Below are positions 20,461 to 29,565 of a stretch of DNA of 44,934 bases, in pieces (within the stretch, counting starts at the first letter, position 1; each line of letters starts with the position of its first letter). The stretch is taken from the NCBI RefSeq assembly GCF_947648125.1, contig NZ_CANSMR010000043.1, positions 1-44,934 on the forward strand, given 5' to 3'. The notes beneath the pieces are model-generated. The model saw nothing but the letters and a program-made list of their open reading frames with translations, did no database searches and was not told the origin of the DNA. This DNA comes from an uncultured Bradyrhizobium sp. (lineage in GTDB: Bacteria; Pseudomonadota; Alphaproteobacteria; Rhizobiales; Xanthobacteraceae). Position numbers and translations under genes: made by a program.

Positions 20461-22008
20461 ATGGGCGAAATTCGCGACTTCAGATCCGGCAAGCCGGGCA
20501 AGCCACCGCCCGGCGAAACGATGCCGCGCCGCCTCGCCGCGATCGTTGCCGGCGATATCGCCGGCTACAGCCGTTTGATGGAGCTCGACGAAGAGGGCAC
20601 CCACAACCGCGTCAAGCGGATCGAGCGCGATCTGATCGAGCCCACCATTTCCGAGCACCACGGCAAGCTGGTCAAGACCACCGGCGACGGGTTCATCGCG
20701 ATGTTCGACAGTCCGGTCGAGGCCGTCCGTTGCAGCATCGTGATTCAGCAGAACATGATCGGCCGCAACGCGGCGATCGCGAGAGATCACTGGATCGAGT
20801 ACCGGATCGGCGTCAATCTCGGCGACGTCATCATCGAGGCCGACGATATCTTCGGCGACGGCGTCAATGTGGCCTCGCGTCTTGAAGGGATTGCAGCGCC
20901 CGGCGAAGTCTTCATCTCCGGCGGCATCTACGAGCAGATCAAGCACAAGATGGTCTGCGGATACGAATCGCTCGGCGACAAGAAGGTCAAGAACATCACC
21001 GATCCGGTCCGGGTCTATCGCGTGTTGCCGGACGCTGCCGCGTACCAGAGGACGCGCCGGCGCCGTGAGTCCATCCTGCTTACGCTGCTCGGACTGGCGG
21101 TCGCAGTCATCGCTGGCGGCGTGCTTTGGTACATGCTGGCGCAACCGCGCACCAAGCCGATCGACGTGGCGCAGGTGCCTCCGTCACCGGCCGTACCGCC
21201 GGCCGTTCAGCAGCCGGCACCGAGCCCGGCTCCGGCTCCGGGCCAAGCTGCAAGTCCGGTCCCAAGTGCCGCACCGACGCAGCAAGCCTCGCCTCAAGCC
21301 GCGCCCTCTGCAACTCCCGCCGCGTCGGTGCCGGAGCCTGAAATAGTCTCGCTCCGGGGCGGCAGCTTCTCGATGGGAAGCAATGACGACCCTTCGGAGC
21401 GGCCGATCCGCAAGGTGACGGTCAAGCCGTTCGCCATGGGCAAATATCCGGTCACCGTGCGGGAATGGAATGCCTGCGCGGCGGCCAAGGCTTGCGGCTT
21501 CACAGCCAGTGGCAAAGACGACGTTCCCGTCACCAATGTGAGCTGGAGCGATGCGAAACAGTATGTGGCCTGGCTCGCCGAGGGGACGAAGAAGGCTTAC
21601 CGGCTTCCGAGCGAGGCCGAATGGGAATACGCGGCGCGGGGTGGAACGCAATCGAGATACTGGTGGGGCGACCAGATTCAATCGGGCAACGCCGGTTGCA
21701 AGGATTGCGGCGGCGGCGACGGTGCCGCCGAACAGCCGGTCAAGGTCGGCAGCTTCAAGCCGAATCCGTTCGGTCTTTACGACATGGGCGGCAGTGTCGA
21801 TCAGTGGGTCGAGGATTGCTGGCACAGGAACTACCAGGGCGCTCCGGCCGACGGTGCAGTGTGGCCCGGCGGCGACTGCGGCTCCCATGTCATTCGTTCC
21901 GGCTCCTGGAAGAACGACGCACGCTATGTCCGTCCCGCCAATCGCGACAATTACGACACCAATGTTCGCTACCCGACCCACGGTTTCCGGGTCGCTTTGT
22001 CTCCTTGA
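20461..22008 (+). CDS. Class III adenylate cyclase fused to an FGE/SUMF1-like domain
   Basis: This is a 515-residue two-domain protein. Residues 22-190 are a class III nucleotide cyclase: AIVAGDIAGYS (metal Asp32), KTTGDGFIAMF (Asp76, with Lys72 in the purine-selecting position) and DGVNVASRLEG (Asn136, Arg140), so it is probably active. One membrane helix follows (205-226), then a Pro/Ala-rich linker (230-292) and a formylglycine-generating-enzyme-like domain (293-515: FSMGSNDDPSERP, LPSEAEWEYAARGG, NPFGLYDMGGSVDQW, THGFRVA). The stretch RSGSWKNDARYVRPANRDN lacks the cysteines that active FGE uses for copper, so this domain is likely a sensor. The cyclase faces the cytoplasm and the FGE-like part the periplasm. 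The ATG at 20461 was chosen; 20521 is possible. Confidence 0.9.
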   Translation: MGEIRDFRSGKPGKPPPGETMPRRLAAIVAGDIAGYSRLMELDEEGTHNRVKRIERDLIEPTISEHHGKLVKTTGDGFIAMFDSPVEAVRCSIVIQQNMIGRNAAIARDHWIEYRIGVNLGDVIIEADDIFGDGVNVASRLEGIAAPGEVFISGGIYEQIKHKMVCGYESLGDKKVKNITDPVRVYRVLPDAAAYQRTRRRRESILLTLLGLAVAVIAGGVLWYMLAQPRTKPIDVAQVPPSPAVPPAVQQPAPSPAPAPGQAASPVPSAAPTQQASPQAAPSATPAASVPEPEIVSLRGGSFSMGSNDDPSERPIRKVTVKPFAMGKYPVTVREWNACAAAKACGFTASGKDDVPVTNVSWSDAKQYVAWLAEGTKKAYRLPSEAEWEYAARGGTQSRYWWGDQIQSGNAGCKDCGGGDGAAEQPVKVGSFKPNPFGLYDMGGSVDQWVEDCWHRNYQGAPADGAVWPGGDCGSHVIRSGSWKNDARYVRPANRDNYDTNVRYPTHGFRVALSP

Positions 22009-23372: not shown

Positions 23373-23727
23373 ACCGGCGCATCCGGGCGTGGGCGTCATC
23401 TGGGCATGCTGCATAATTCCGCGCCATCGCGCGGGGCGGTTCCTGCGTTGCCTCTCTAACTCATTGTATTTACACGTATTTAAAGCGCATCCGTGAGCGC
23501 CCCCGGTTGGCACATCCATTGCTTTTGATTGCACCAGTCAATGACGACTGCCGTCCTCCGGATTGCCGAAGCCAATGCAGGCCGAGGTGAGGGGATCAAG
23601 GCGCCCCGCCGGGCGCCGCGAGCAATCGTTGCACCCCCATCTCCCCGGACGGACGAGCATTTCAACCAACCCGCGTCGCTTCCGGTAGGCAACCGGCGCG
23701 GCCGAATTGCGCAAGGGGAATTTACGA
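23373..23727. other. Long leader region of the FNT gene, with sigma-54 promoter
   Basis: These 355 bases contain no gene I accept. They hold a direct repeat GTATTTA (23466-23472 and 23476-23482, period 10), the sigma-54 promoter at 23508-23522, and then a GC-rich untranslated leader of nearly 200 bases. An 83-codon frame at 23529-23780 runs into the FNT gene out of frame and has no ribosome site. Confidence 0.6.
23508..23522 (+). promoter_or_regulatory. Sigma-54 (RpoN) promoter of the FNT channel gene
   Basis: TTGGCAC-ATCCA-TTGCT matches the sigma-54 consensus, with the GG at 23509-23510 and the GC at 23521-23522 exactly 10 bases apart. Transcription would begin near 23533. This implies control by an enhancer-binding protein, for example an NtrC-type nitrogen regulator. 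I do not see a clear enhancer site; the GTATTTA direct repeat upstream is the only candidate. Confidence 0.75.
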
Positions 23728-24546
23728 ATGGCCTATCTCGCACCGTCCGAATTCGTCACCAAGATGGTGGACGCCGGTGAATCCAAGATATTCATGTCGA
23801 CGCGCGACACCGTGATCCGCGCTTACATGGCCGGTGCGATCCTCGCGCTGGCGGCTTGGTTTGCCGTGACGATCAACGTCAACACGGGTCAGCCGCTTGT
23901 CGGCGCATTGCTGTTTCCGGTCGGCTTCGTGATGCTCTATCTGCTGGGCTTCGATCTGCTGACGGGGGTGTTCGTTCTCTCGCCGCTCGCGCTGCTCGAC
24001 AAGCGCCCTGGCGTCACGCTCGGCGGCGTGCTGCGAAACTGGGGCCTCGTCTTCATCGGCAACTTCGCCGGCGCGCTCACGGTGGCGTTCATGATGGCGT
24101 TCGTGACGACCTTCGGCTTCACGCAGGAGCCCGACAAGGTCGGCATGACCATCGGAAACGTCGGTGAGGCGCGAACGCTGGGTTATGCGGCGCATGGTGC
24201 GGCGGGCATGGCCACTCTCTTCATCCGCGGCATGCTCTGCAACTGGATGGTTTCCACGGGCGTCGTCGGCGCCATGATCTCCACGACGGTGCCCGGCAAG
24301 GTCATCGCGATGTGGATGCCGATCCTGGTGTTCTTCTACATGGTGTTCGAGCATTCGGTCGTGAACATGTTCCTGTTCCCGTCGGGACTGATGCTGCATG
24401 CCAAGTTCTCGATCATGGACTACCTGATCTGGAACGAGATCCCGACCGTGCTCGGCAACCTCGCCGGCGGCCTCGCCTTCACCGGGCTCACGCTCTACAC
24501 GACGCATGTGAAGACGGCGCCGAAGCGCCAGCGCCTCGCGGCTTGA
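23728..24546 (+). CDS. Formate/nitrite (FNT) family channel
   Basis: This 272-residue FNT channel should assemble as a pentamer in the inner membrane. Six membrane segments are visible, with the FNT marks GNFAGA (residues 111-116), FIRGMLCNWMV (165-175) and FEHSVVNMF, which contains the central pore His209. FNT channels pass formate, nitrite, hydrosulfide or similar small anions, and the sequence does not settle which. AAGGGG upstream supports the ATG at 23728 rather than one seven codons earlier. It is driven by a sigma-54 promoter and followed 60 bases later by a phosphatase/kinase gene. Confidence 0.93.
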   Translation: MAYLAPSEFVTKMVDAGESKIFMSTRDTVIRAYMAGAILALAAWFAVTINVNTGQPLVGALLFPVGFVMLYLLGFDLLTGVFVLSPLALLDKRPGVTLGGVLRNWGLVFIGNFAGALTVAFMMAFVTTFGFTQEPDKVGMTIGNVGEARTLGYAAHGAAGMATLFIRGMLCNWMVSTGVVGAMISTTVPGKVIAMWMPILVFFYMVFEHSVVNMFLFPSGLMLHAKFSIMDYLIWNEIPTVLGNLAGGLAFTGLTLYTTHVKTAPKRQRLAA

Positions 24547-24606
24547 TCCCGGGCGGCTTATGGGGCTCTCCTGTCACGGAGGGCCCCATTCGCATTGGGA
24601 CGGTCG

Positions 24607-26343
24607 ATGCCGCGCGCGCTGACAATATCGGTCGGGCAATTCTCTGATCAGGGCCGCAAGGACACCAATCAGGATTTCCACGGCGTCTTGATCCCCGACG
24701 AGCCGCTGCTCGGCCTGAAGGGCATCGCGGTGGTGCTTGCCGACGGCATCTCCTCGAGCAGCGTCAGCCGCATCGCCGCCGAGTCCGCGGTCAAGAGCTT
24801 CCTGACCGATTACTACTGCACCTCGGAATCCTGGTCGGTGAAGACCTCGGCGCAGCGGGTGCTGGAGGCGACCAATTCCTGGCTGCACGCGCAGACCAGG
24901 CGCAGCCAGAACCCCTACGACAAGGACAAGGGTTACGTCTGCACGCTGAGCGCGCTGGTGATCCGGTCGACCACGGCGCATCTGTTCCATGTTGGCGACA
25001 GCAGGATCTACCGGGTCGCGGGCAACAGCCTCGAACAATTGACCAACGACCACCGCGTCGTGATCTCCTCGCAGCAGAGCTATCTCGGCCGTGCGCTCGG
25101 CGTGAACCCGCAACTCGAGATCGACTACCAGAATCTCCCGCTCGAGCGTGGCGACACCTTCCTGCTGGTGACCGACGGCATCTACGAGCACGTCCCGGCG
25201 CGGCAGCTCGCCAAGACCATCAGGGAGGGCGCTGCCGATCTCGATGCTGCCGCGAAGTCGATCGTCGCGCAGGCCTATGAGAACGGCAGCCTGGACAATC
25301 TCACCGCGCAGATCATCCGCATCGACGAATTGCCCGACAGCGACGCCAGCGAGGTGTTCGGCCAGCCCACCGAGCTGCCGCTGCCGCCGCTGCTCGATGC
25401 AAGGATGCTGTTCGACGGCTACCGCATCGTCCGCGAGCTGCATGCATCGCACCGCAGCCACATCTATCTCGCGGTCGACGAGGAGAGCGGCACCACGGTC
25501 ACGATCAAGATCCCCTCGATCGACCTGCGTGACGATGGCGCCTATCTGAAACGCTTCATGCTGGAGGAGTGGGTCGCCCGGCGGATCGACAGCCCGCATG
25601 TGCTGAAGCCGTTTCTGCCGCAGCGCAAGCGCAACTTCCTCTATGTCGCGATGGAGTACATCGACGGCCAGACCCTGACGCAGTGGATAACAGACAATCC
25701 CGCGCCGTCGCTCGAGACGGTGCGCGACATCACCGAGCAAATTGCAAAGGGGCTGCGCGCGTTCCACCGCAAGGAGATGCTGCACCAGGACGTCAGGCCC
25801 GACAACATCATGATCGACAACACCGGTACGGTGAAGATCATCGACTTCGGCTCGACGCGAATCTCTGGCGTCGCCGAGGCGGTGCCGGCGGGCGTCGAGG
25901 ACATTCTGGGGACCCAGCAATACACCGCACCGGAGTATTTCCTCAGCGAGGGCGGCACCGCGCGCTCGGACCTGTTCTCGCTCGGCGTCGTCACCTATCA
26001 GATGCTGACGGGACGCTTGCCCTATGGCGCGCAGATCGCGCGTGCCCGGACCCGAGCCGACTTCAACCGGCTGGTGTACCGTCCGGCTGCGCATAGCGGC
26101 CGCGAGATTCCGAACTGGGTCGACGGCACGCTGGAGCGCGCCGTGCGCGTCAGTCCGCTCAAGCGCTACGACAGCTTTTCCGAGTTCCTTTTCGACCTGC
26201 GCAATCCCAACGCAAAATATCTGACGACGTCATCGACGCCGCTGATCGAGCGCAACCCGGTGCTGTTCTGGAAGTCGACCACGCTGGTGCTGACGCTCGT
26301 CGTGGTGCTGCTGCTCGCCTACGGTGCGCATCATTTGCGGTAG
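24607..26343 (+). CDS. PP2C phosphatase / Ser-Thr kinase fusion, tail-anchored
   Basis: This 578-residue bifunctional protein begins with a PP2C domain at residues 1-240: RKDTNQD, LADGISS (Asp46), VGDSRIY (Asp131), VTDG (Asp190) and LDN (Asp230). A protein kinase domain follows at 268-535: VTIKIP with Lys301, HQDVRPDN with Asp395, DFGS with Asp413, and APE at 441-443. The usual HRDxK becomes HQDVR, so Arg397 replaces the catalytic-loop Lys. A single hydrophobic helix at 557-572 near the C terminus anchors it with the catalytic domains in the cytoplasm. Fusions of this kind sit beside nitrate, nitrite or formate transporters in many Proteobacteria. It likely controls the FNT channel or an associated pathway by reversible phosphorylation. 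Confidence 0.93.
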   Translation: MPRALTISVGQFSDQGRKDTNQDFHGVLIPDEPLLGLKGIAVVLADGISSSSVSRIAAESAVKSFLTDYYCTSESWSVKTSAQRVLEATNSWLHAQTRRSQNPYDKDKGYVCTLSALVIRSTTAHLFHVGDSRIYRVAGNSLEQLTNDHRVVISSQQSYLGRALGVNPQLEIDYQNLPLERGDTFLLVTDGIYEHVPARQLAKTIREGAADLDAAAKSIVAQAYENGSLDNLTAQIIRIDELPDSDASEVFGQPTELPLPPLLDARMLFDGYRIVRELHASHRSHIYLAVDEESGTTVTIKIPSIDLRDDGAYLKRFMLEEWVARRIDSPHVLKPFLPQRKRNFLYVAMEYIDGQTLTQWITDNPAPSLETVRDITEQIAKGLRAFHRKEMLHQDVRPDNIMIDNTGTVKIIDFGSTRISGVAEAVPAGVEDILGTQQYTAPEYFLSEGGTARSDLFSLGVVTYQMLTGRLPYGAQIARARTRADFNRLVYRPAAHSGREIPNWVDGTLERAVRVSPLKRYDSFSEFLFDLRNPNAKYLTTSSTPLIERNPVLFWKSTTLVLTLVVVLLLAYGAHHLR

Positions 26344-28739: not shown

Positions 28740-28908
28740 CCGCCCCTGGCTAGGCTGGATATGCAATATCGACGCCAGAGAGGGGGCGGGCTGCCCGGCA
28801 AATTGGCACGTGGCTTGCTGCAAAAATGAACGGCTTCGGGGGCGCGGCGGTTTGGACCGGCGCGCGGTGTCCGGGGGTCAGGACGCGTTCAGGGCGTGAG
28901 GGACTGAT

Positions 28909-29565
28909 ATGGCGAAGGCGACACTCACCATCAGCAGCAAGAATTATTCGTCCTGGTCGCTGCGCGGCTGGTTGCTGGCGAAATTCGCCGGGCTGGAGTT
29001 CGAGGAGGTGGTCACCGCGCCCGATGACCCCACGGCGCGGGCCGAGCTGCTGCTGCTGTCTTCGTCGATCCTGGTGCCCTGCCTGCGCCACGAGGGCGCG
29101 ACCGTCTGGGACACGCTGGCGATCGGCGAGTATCTCAACGAGATCATGCCGCATGCCGGGCTGCTGCCCGAGGACCGGATCCAGCGCGCGCATTGCCGTT
29201 CGATCTCGGGCGAAATCCATTCCGGCTTCACCACGCTGCGGTCGTCGCTGCCGGTCAATCTCAAGGGGCATTTTCCCGGCTTCAAGATCTGGTCGCGGGC
29301 GCAGGCCGATATCGACCGGGTCTGCACCATCTGGCGCGATTGTCTCGGCAAATCAGGAGGGCCGTTCCTGTTCGGCGAACGCCGCACCATGGCGGACGCG
29401 ATGTACGCGCCCGTCGTGACCCGCTTCATGACCTATGACGTGAAGCTCGACCCGGTTCTGGCGGCGTATGCCACGACCATCATGGCGATGCCCGAGATGC
29501 TGGAATGGATCGAGGCCGCGAAGGCCGAGCCTGCCGACGTCGAGGAGCTCGAGGTCGAATATTAG
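28909..29565 (+). CDS. Glutathione S-transferase family protein
   Basis: This 218-residue GST has an N-terminal thioredoxin-fold domain starting TLTISSKNYSSWSLRGWLLA, with the catalytic-type serines, and the conserved cis-Pro region SILVPCLRHEGATVWDTLAI. An alpha-helical C-terminal domain follows, with FLFGERRTMADAMYAPVVTR. It conjugates or reduces electrophiles using glutathione in the cytoplasm; the substrate is unknown. It is divergent from phaZ, and the start follows GGGACTGAT. No other glutathione gene is adjacent, though a GFA-family protein and glutathione peroxidase occur elsewhere in the window. Confidence 0.92.
   Translation: MAKATLTISSKNYSSWSLRGWLLAKFAGLEFEEVVTAPDDPTARAELLLLSSSILVPCLRHEGATVWDTLAIGEYLNEIMPHAGLLPEDRIQRAHCRSISGEIHSGFTTLRSSLPVNLKGHFPGFKIWSRAQADIDRVCTIWRDCLGKSGGPFLFGERRTMADAMYAPVVTRFMTYDVKLDPVLAAYATTIMAMPEMLEWIEAAKAEPADVEELEVEY

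Follow-up and report, generated by a model that had tools for sequence, protein, structure and literature searches.

Recurrent pairing of a formate/nitrite-family channel with a phosphatase–kinase fusion suggests phosphorylation control of nitrite entry

The stretch of DNA analyzed here (the window) is a 44,934-nucleotide contig (C43) of the 71-contig, 8.57-Mb genome of an uncultured Bradyrhizobium sp. Its forward strand carries, in this order, a -24/-12 promoter of the RpoN (sigma-54) type, a gene for a channel of the formate/nitrite transporter (FNT) family and, 60 nucleotides (nt) downstream, a gene for a PP2C phosphatase fused to a Ser/Thr kinase. The recurrence of this pair and of its nitrogen-type switch in many bacteria suggests that nitrite entry may be opened and closed by phosphorylation. 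We give about even odds (roughly 0.5) to the proposal as a whole, namely a nitrogen-assimilation operon under RpoN and NasT control whose channel would be gated by the fusion. A broader statement is more tentative and falls short of even odds: such fusions may be membrane-tethered writers and erasers for the nitrate/nitrite (perhaps cyanate) transporters of Proteobacteria, with one PP2C–kinase polypeptide encoded beside its target, lineages that follow the transporter family, HxDxR as the mark of the FNT lineage, and reversible Ser/Thr phosphorylation added on top of RpoN and NasT control. Comparison between loci establishes the promoter, the first leader hairpin, the gene pairing and the residue conservation, and from these we infer RpoN use, NasT binding, the nitrite substrate and channel phosphorylation.

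The channel gene (23728..24546, +; 272 amino acids) matches Pfam PF01226 (Form_Nir_trans) at 205 bits against a cut-off of 34.6, and its product keeps the FEHS histidine segment (FEHSVVNMF, aligned with FocA and LCIA). None of the NCBIfam FNT subfamily models reaches its curated cut-off (fnt 133 vs 232, FocA 115 vs 290, NirC 42 vs 293); by sequence, the nearest solved structure is LCIA (9v2a, 96 bits), ahead of FocA (52-56) and NirC (32). The fusion gene (24607..26343, +; 578 amino acids) was characterized by Pfam, hydropathy, AlphaFold and Foldseek. Its Pfam matches are PP2C_2 (57.9 bits, residues 18-200) and Pkinase (127 bits, residues 284-488). The PP2C domain, residues 18-231 (24658..25299, +), carries the metal aspartates at 23, 46, 190 and 230, and the kinase domain, about residues 269-533 (25411..26205, +), retains Lys301, Glu320, Asp395, Asn400 and Asp413. 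A C-terminal helix at residues 551-577 (26257..26337, +), preceded by R-N-P-x-x-F-W-K, is predicted by AlphaFold and hydropathy as a membrane tail anchor. The AlphaFold model, built from 31 aligned sequences, is of moderate confidence (mean predicted local distance difference test score 69.5, predicted template modeling score 0.48), and Foldseek searches with it matched PP2C phosphatases (2pk0) and PknB/PknA/PknE-type kinases. Sequence, Pfam and helix prediction agree with the layout given in a preliminary description of the locus, an FNT channel followed after 60 nt by a phosphatase–kinase fusion with a tail helix.

Co-occurrence of the two genes, left as a question in that description, proved frequent. 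Among the best 80 of 350 relatives, the fusion is directly preceded by an FNT gene in 78; the two exceptions are a contig edge (locus L102) and locus L061, which has no FNT within 8 kb upstream and offers a natural test of the role of the fusion without the channel. Outside the genus, 35 of 80 fusion loci lie beside FNT and 34 beside NarK, a proportion (69/80) that is not a random-sample rate, the loci having been drawn from the matches listed after removal of the own genus, the heavily sampled family f59 in its entirety, partial hits and some repeats. Transporters were assigned by tblastn, in which 18 of 28 NarK-upstream calls were weak (44-63 bits). When these 18, together with L207 and L211, were retested with NCBIfam, 19/20 exceeded the NarK cut-off, and L207 had NarK as its best family (284 vs a cut-off of 311.7). 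Six NarK and two FNT assignments were made by hand as neighbors, four of these NarK and both FNT genes being in another orientation. Among the matches listed, 55 of 150 FNT places have a fusion no more than 1.5 kb away, and these 55 belong to a single score band (55/81); the fusion stands beside 0/58 of the highest-scoring places, which are by inference FocA/NirC-like, and 0/11 of the lowest-scoring ones; 77 listed fusion places entered this distance count and the rest were compared by eye.

The association extends to plasmids and holds across genomes. The annotations of 11 plasmid loci (of 35 records) place FNT immediately ahead of the fusion in 8 and NarK or another major facilitator superfamily (MFS) gene there in 2; in the remaining one the fusion is flanked by both transporters, on the other strand. 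Within the genus, the FNT-type fusion occurs in 25/35 other genomes, each of which also has an FNT scoring in the 200-209 bit band, and the remaining 10 lack both. A sample of 398 Pseudomonadota genomes contained 129 with the fusion (E <= 1e-60) and 147 with an FNT. The window's own genome contains a paralogue of the fusion, 32% identical, directly behind a NarK-like gene (NCBIfam NarK is the best family at 245 bits, below the 311.7 cut-off), with an exact -24/-12 site of its own and a divergent nirB (905 bits, over cut-off). No description of the fusion as a transporter partner was found in the open-licence PMC literature searched.

The fusion has diverged along with its neighbor. When 94 fusions were placed in a quick maximum-likelihood tree (no bootstrap; L208, L214 and L247 excluded, their frame not having been recovered), all 47 FNT-linked rows fall on one branch together with one unclassified row (Shimodaira–Hasegawa-like approximate likelihood ratio 100), and the four transporter labels need 6 changes vs 37.9 when shuffled. 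The HRDxK Lys position is Arg in 45/47 FNT-linked rows and Lys in 36/36 NarK-linked rows. At this position the window has Arg397 (codon 25795..25797, +; HxDxR replacing HxDxK), the hallmark of the FNT-linked branch. Decay as an explanation of HQDVR was rejected on the same 45/47 rows, and HQDVR is, on this alignment, a lineage mark of the FNT-linked branch. The substitution seen in the preliminary description is real, and the doubt about kinase activity that it raised there is largely removed, Arg being normal in that branch. The PP2C metal Asp and the kinase Lys, Asp, Asn and Asp are kept in 83/83 FNT- and NarK-linked rows and the alphaC Glu in 82/83; within the FNT-linked set, D23, D46, D190 and D230, as well as K301, D395, N400 and D413, are present in 47/47 rows and E320 in 46/47 (Asp in one).

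The -24/-12 element TTGGCACATCCATTGCTT (23507..23524, +) agrees with the RpoN consensus at 11/11 positions, with GG and GC 10 nt apart. From the -12 element, transcription is predicted to start at about 23533/23534, giving a 5' leader (23534..23727, +) of about 195 nt to the ATG at 23728. A single exact match is weak evidence by itself: TGGCACN5TTGCW occurs 15 times in the genome vs 7 times for a backwards-read control. The site recurs at 10 or 11/11 in 26/26 genus loci, at -217 to -338 from the channel ATG, and among 2,700 Markov-resampled upstream regions at least 10 matches were reached in 1.7% and 11 in 0.1%. Between three clades, the 98 nt preceding the site have 0.26-0.32 ungapped identity vs 0.66-0.86 for the promoter 16-mer. 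Conservation in 26/26 loci despite such diverged flanks rules out a chance match, and the exact consensus and 195-nt leader of the preliminary description were confirmed by direct reading of the window's letters. In a separately fetched named set, which overlaps in species with the 26-locus genus set, the site is present in 62/63 Bradyrhizobium-titled loci, the miss (L089) being a contig edge, and in 9/15 others. Outside the genus, among 33 loci with FNT directly upstream, at least 9/11 positions match in 19 vs 1 for the reversed control, and at least 10/11 in 9 vs 0. Six of the 14 misses have nirB ahead of FNT, which is therefore probably not the first gene there. These comparisons lend strong support to an RpoN-type control of the channel gene. 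Elsewhere in the genome, exact sites precede, among others, a DctA-like gene (L311, identified by eye) and the NarK-like gene next to the fusion paralogue. The window has a second one at 28804-28819 (+), 89 nt ahead of a glutathione S-transferase (GST)-like gene (28909-29565).

The leader points to a further layer of control, one which the preliminary description had overlooked. An ANTAR-type hairpin, CAGTC[AATGAC]GACTG (23535..23550, +), has a hexaloop with A at position 1 and G at position 4, the feature that defines ANTAR-protein targets (PMC3369931, in its accessible text). A hairpin of this type lies at most 45 nt from the promoter in 26/26 genus loci, 61/63 of the named Bradyrhizobium set and 6/15 others, and in 3.2% of resampled tails. 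As a conserved element, this first hairpin is well supported by the alignments. A candidate second hairpin, GCC[AATGCA]GGC (23571..23582, +; 3-bp stem), has the same A1/G4 hexaloop, and a terminator-like stem, GGCGCCC-CGCC-GGGCGCC (23600..23617, +), aligns below threshold with the 3' stem of Rfam P11. Covariation of both leader stems is weak because the base pairs hardly vary. At contig C47 the genome encodes an ANTAR protein (PF03861, 74.3 bits) and, next to it, a binding protein resembling NasS; neither of the two is named NasS or NasT by any NCBIfam model. In Paracoccus, nitrate and nitrite dissociate NasS-NasT (PMC3795266), and in B. diazoefficiens NasT regulates denitrification and assimilation genes (PMC6759348). 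The leaders named in the accessible part of the latter paper are those of nirA, coxS, narK, bjgb and nosR, and the FNT-fusion operon is not among them. An RpoN promoter combined with nitrate/nitrite antitermination is the best reading of the region as it appears.

A search for further such leaders in the genome with model R1 was convincing for the FNT leader only (74.9 bits; the next match had 20.6 bits, E 0.12; 150 of 13,159 first-look candidates were scored), no nitrogen gene was seen by eye at the seven next matches, and the strict promoter-plus-hairpin pattern occurs once. Against Rfam, the leader matched P11 best and narK RNA second or third, all far below threshold (P11, RF00625, 15.4 bits vs 70; narK RNA, RF03032, 14.6 vs 43.2). 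Both families are over threshold in two Pseudomonas-like loci, narK RNA before the nitrate transporter that precedes the fusion and P11 before nirB. The P11 matches lie just ahead of nirB (L241 6286-6415 and L245 3741-3880). With a TTGGCAC element, loops of ANTAR-like form and a stem at the end of its consensus, P11, although catalogued as a small RNA gene, looks more like a NasT-type leader than a free small RNA.

Under the proposal, nitrogen shortage would lead RpoN-polymerase to start at about 23534. Nitrate or nitrite would release NasT from NasS, and NasT would then bind the leader hairpin and allow transcription to continue, a step that we infer because the leader anatomy is conserved and the genome has a NasS-NasT-like gene pair. 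Through the FNT channel a small anion, in all likelihood nitrite, would reach the cytoplasm and be assimilated. The fusion, held by its tail helix at the inner membrane face, would add phosphate to the channel and remove it, most likely at the N- or C-terminal cytoplasmic ends, and uptake of a toxic anion would shut quickly once it outran reduction. The same arrangement would serve NarK-type nitrate transporters, both elsewhere and in the same genome. Gating of FNT proteins has precedent, because in certain species the cyanobacterial FNT nitrite transporter NitM is inhibited by its own C-terminal tail, and cells die when they take up too much nitrite, according to the accessible text of PMC4390861. 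As candidate phospho-sites of the channel we noted Thr25, found in 48/48 linked channels, and Thr263 (Ser or Thr in 47/48), with shares of 0.02 and 0.04 among 45 distant FNTs that have no link to a fusion. Five close unlinked ones had been set aside for this comparison; once they are included (50 in all), the shares rise to 0.12 and 0.14. The two sites are a lead, not evidence.

Several observations weigh against this picture. Residues other than Ser and Thr are as clade-specific in the linked channels as Thr25 and Thr263. In the leader, the second hairpin is weak, an A1/G4 hairpin being found there in 16/26 genus loci (in L015 elsewhere) and mostly with a 3-4 bp stem, and the strong stem at 23600-23617 has no U-tract. 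The pairing is not universal: 11 of the 80 loci outside the genus are either pyrophosphate-linked (7) or have other neighbors (4), and L061 (Bradyrhizobium sp. LTSP885) retains an FNT-type fusion with no channel gene in reach. Seven dead versions of the fusion sit away from any such transporter. They form a sister clade (family f72; L233-L237, L239, L248), in which the phosphatase metal residues and the kinase catalytic Asp are lost in 7/7 rows, and which adjoins inorganic pyrophosphatase and/or pyrophosphate-dependent phosphofructokinase (by models in L236 and by eye in the others, L233 being unclear); the clade is a double pseudoenzyme with a possible new role. The lack of a good NtrC site in the window, the cyanase gene near many related loci and some kinase motifs count on the same side, and each bears on one of the alternatives below.

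The best-placed alternative is that the promoter depends on RpoN and answers to an activator other than NtrC, be it NifA, NtrX or another bacterial enhancer-binding protein. Upstream in the window there is no convincing NtrC palindrome (3-6 mismatches; best 3), and no clear NifA site was found. A degenerate remnant, TGGGC-N5-GCATA (23401..23415, +), stands where many relatives carry an exact palindrome. At least one exact palindrome of three kinds is present in 58/97 relatives pooled from two sets that overlap in species (17, 28 and 28 loci), mostly ~100-120 bp upstream. TGTGC-N4-GCACA and TTGTGC-N3-GCACAA, each exact in 28/97 loci and mostly 97-118 bp before the -24 element, presumably differ from the NtrC consensus, which favors another activator. 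Exact GCAC-N7-GTGC, which we take to be the NtrC half-site spacing, occurs in 17/97 vs 0.6% of resampled sequences, and this argues for NtrC, as does a NasT-type leader, which suits general nitrogen control. On balance a different activator is a sizeable possibility, if short of an even one. In L013, both palindrome arms are altered together (TGGGC/GCCCA). As for the nitrogen-status control put forward in the preliminary description, the conserved RpoN-type site (26/26) and the nitrogen genes near some relatives speak for it, but the window lacks a good NtrC palindrome and the ANTAR layer was missing from the account. The gating by phosphorylation put forward there may also hold, the pairing with nitrate/nitrite transporters throughout the family lending it indirect support.

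The fusion might instead act in nitrate/nitrite assimilation on a different target, such as NasS-NasT, nitrite reductase, PII or siroheme enzymes, with the channel gene merely an operon partner. Consistent with this, nirB, nirD, nasS/nasT, nrtB or cysG lies within about 4 kb of 13/35 FNT-linked and 20/32 NarK-linked loci, and no phospho-site evidence singles out the channel. A transporter is nevertheless by far the commonest neighbor (69/80), and we favor gating of the channel because the fusion is anchored in the membrane and has remained next to the transporter while diverging alongside it, its tree dividing by transporter family. Action on another target appears unlikely, if far from negligible.

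Nitrite as the substrate is less certain than it seems, because the cyanase gene cynS adjoins 15/35 FNT-linked loci outside the genus (L176, L182, L183, L186-L188, L197, L198, L201-L203, L208, L210, L227 and L232) vs 0/32 NarK-linked loci; it also lies beside the pair on Acinetobacter and Psychrobacter plasmids (plasmid loci L166 and L167). The channel could accordingly carry cyanate, bicarbonate or formate, the operon serving another nitrogen source, and the closeness of LCIA over FocA and NirC is in keeping with this. Other relatives have nitrogen neighbors of the nitrate/nitrite kind (nirBD, nirA, nrtABC, siroheme synthase): nirBD or nirA stands beside other FNT-linked loci and nrtABC-like genes are divergent from the locus in B. 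barranii, whereas the cynS of the window's own genome is unlinked, at contig C20. With a NasT-type leader ahead of the channel gene as well, we consider another substrate rather unlikely, and nitrite remains the preferred one. Elsewhere in the window, at 20494-22005 (+), an adenylate/guanylate cyclase domain is joined to an FGE-sulfatase (SUMF1-like) domain.

It is improbable that the phosphatase alone works, with the kinase half serving as a pseudokinase or scaffold: the nucleotide loop of the window's kinase, normally glycine-rich, has no glycines, the motif reads HxDxR, the HRD arginine is Gln in 40/47 FNT-linked rows, the DFG glycine is Ala in 7/47 and a sister clade with both active sites lost exists, but the catalytic residues are retained almost without exception in the FNT-linked rows, and active Src-type kinases also have Arg at the HRDxK Lys position.

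To our knowledge, it is poorly understood how heterotrophic bacteria rapidly adjust their uptake of nitrate and nitrite. In cyanobacteria, control of this uptake runs via PII, as stated in the accessible text of PMC4390861. If true, the proposal would supply a concrete, testable enzyme for uptake control, carried by roughly one in three of the Pseudomonadota genomes sampled (129/398). It would also account for the frequent association of nitrate/nitrite transporters with a gene known chiefly from its database name.

We know of no dedicated kinase–phosphatase for NitM, NirC, FocA or LCIA. These proteins share the PF01226 family with the channel of the window, and NitM is likewise nitrogen-regulated (PMC4390861). 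The closest match for the leader is provided by the NasS-NasT and NasR leaders of Klebsiella nasF, Paracoccus nasABGHC and Bradyrhizobium nirA and nosR (PMC3369931, PMC5424462, PMC3795266, PMC6759348), which share with it an A1/G4 hexaloop hairpin at the transcript start, a nitrogen-regulated setting and NasS-NasT-like genes; nasABGHC likewise includes a nitrite transporter gene, nasH. Unlike in these leaders, the second hairpin and the terminator are less clear in the window. The Rfam P11 and narK RNA consensus sequences have a TTGGCAC-type element and an AACG/AAAG-type loop region, and P11 a terminal stem, although by score the window is not a member of either family. A Pseudomonas member of the fusion family is presumably PA1782. 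In the accessible text of PMC8560001 it is mentioned solely as a possible kinase. The NCBI entry 'bifunctional protein-serine/threonine kinase/phosphatase', a database name, has the identical domain order and is annotated beside FNT or NarK on plasmids. In plants, the nitrate transporter NRT1.1 is acted on by the kinase CIPK23 and a PP2C phosphatase. The outline is alike, but there the enzymes are separate proteins and the transporter is unrelated, and no common descent is claimed. The promoter type, the antitermination type and the channel family are thus known parts, and what appears to be new, judged by the open-licence PMC literature searched, is the proposed dedicated kinase–phosphatase partner.

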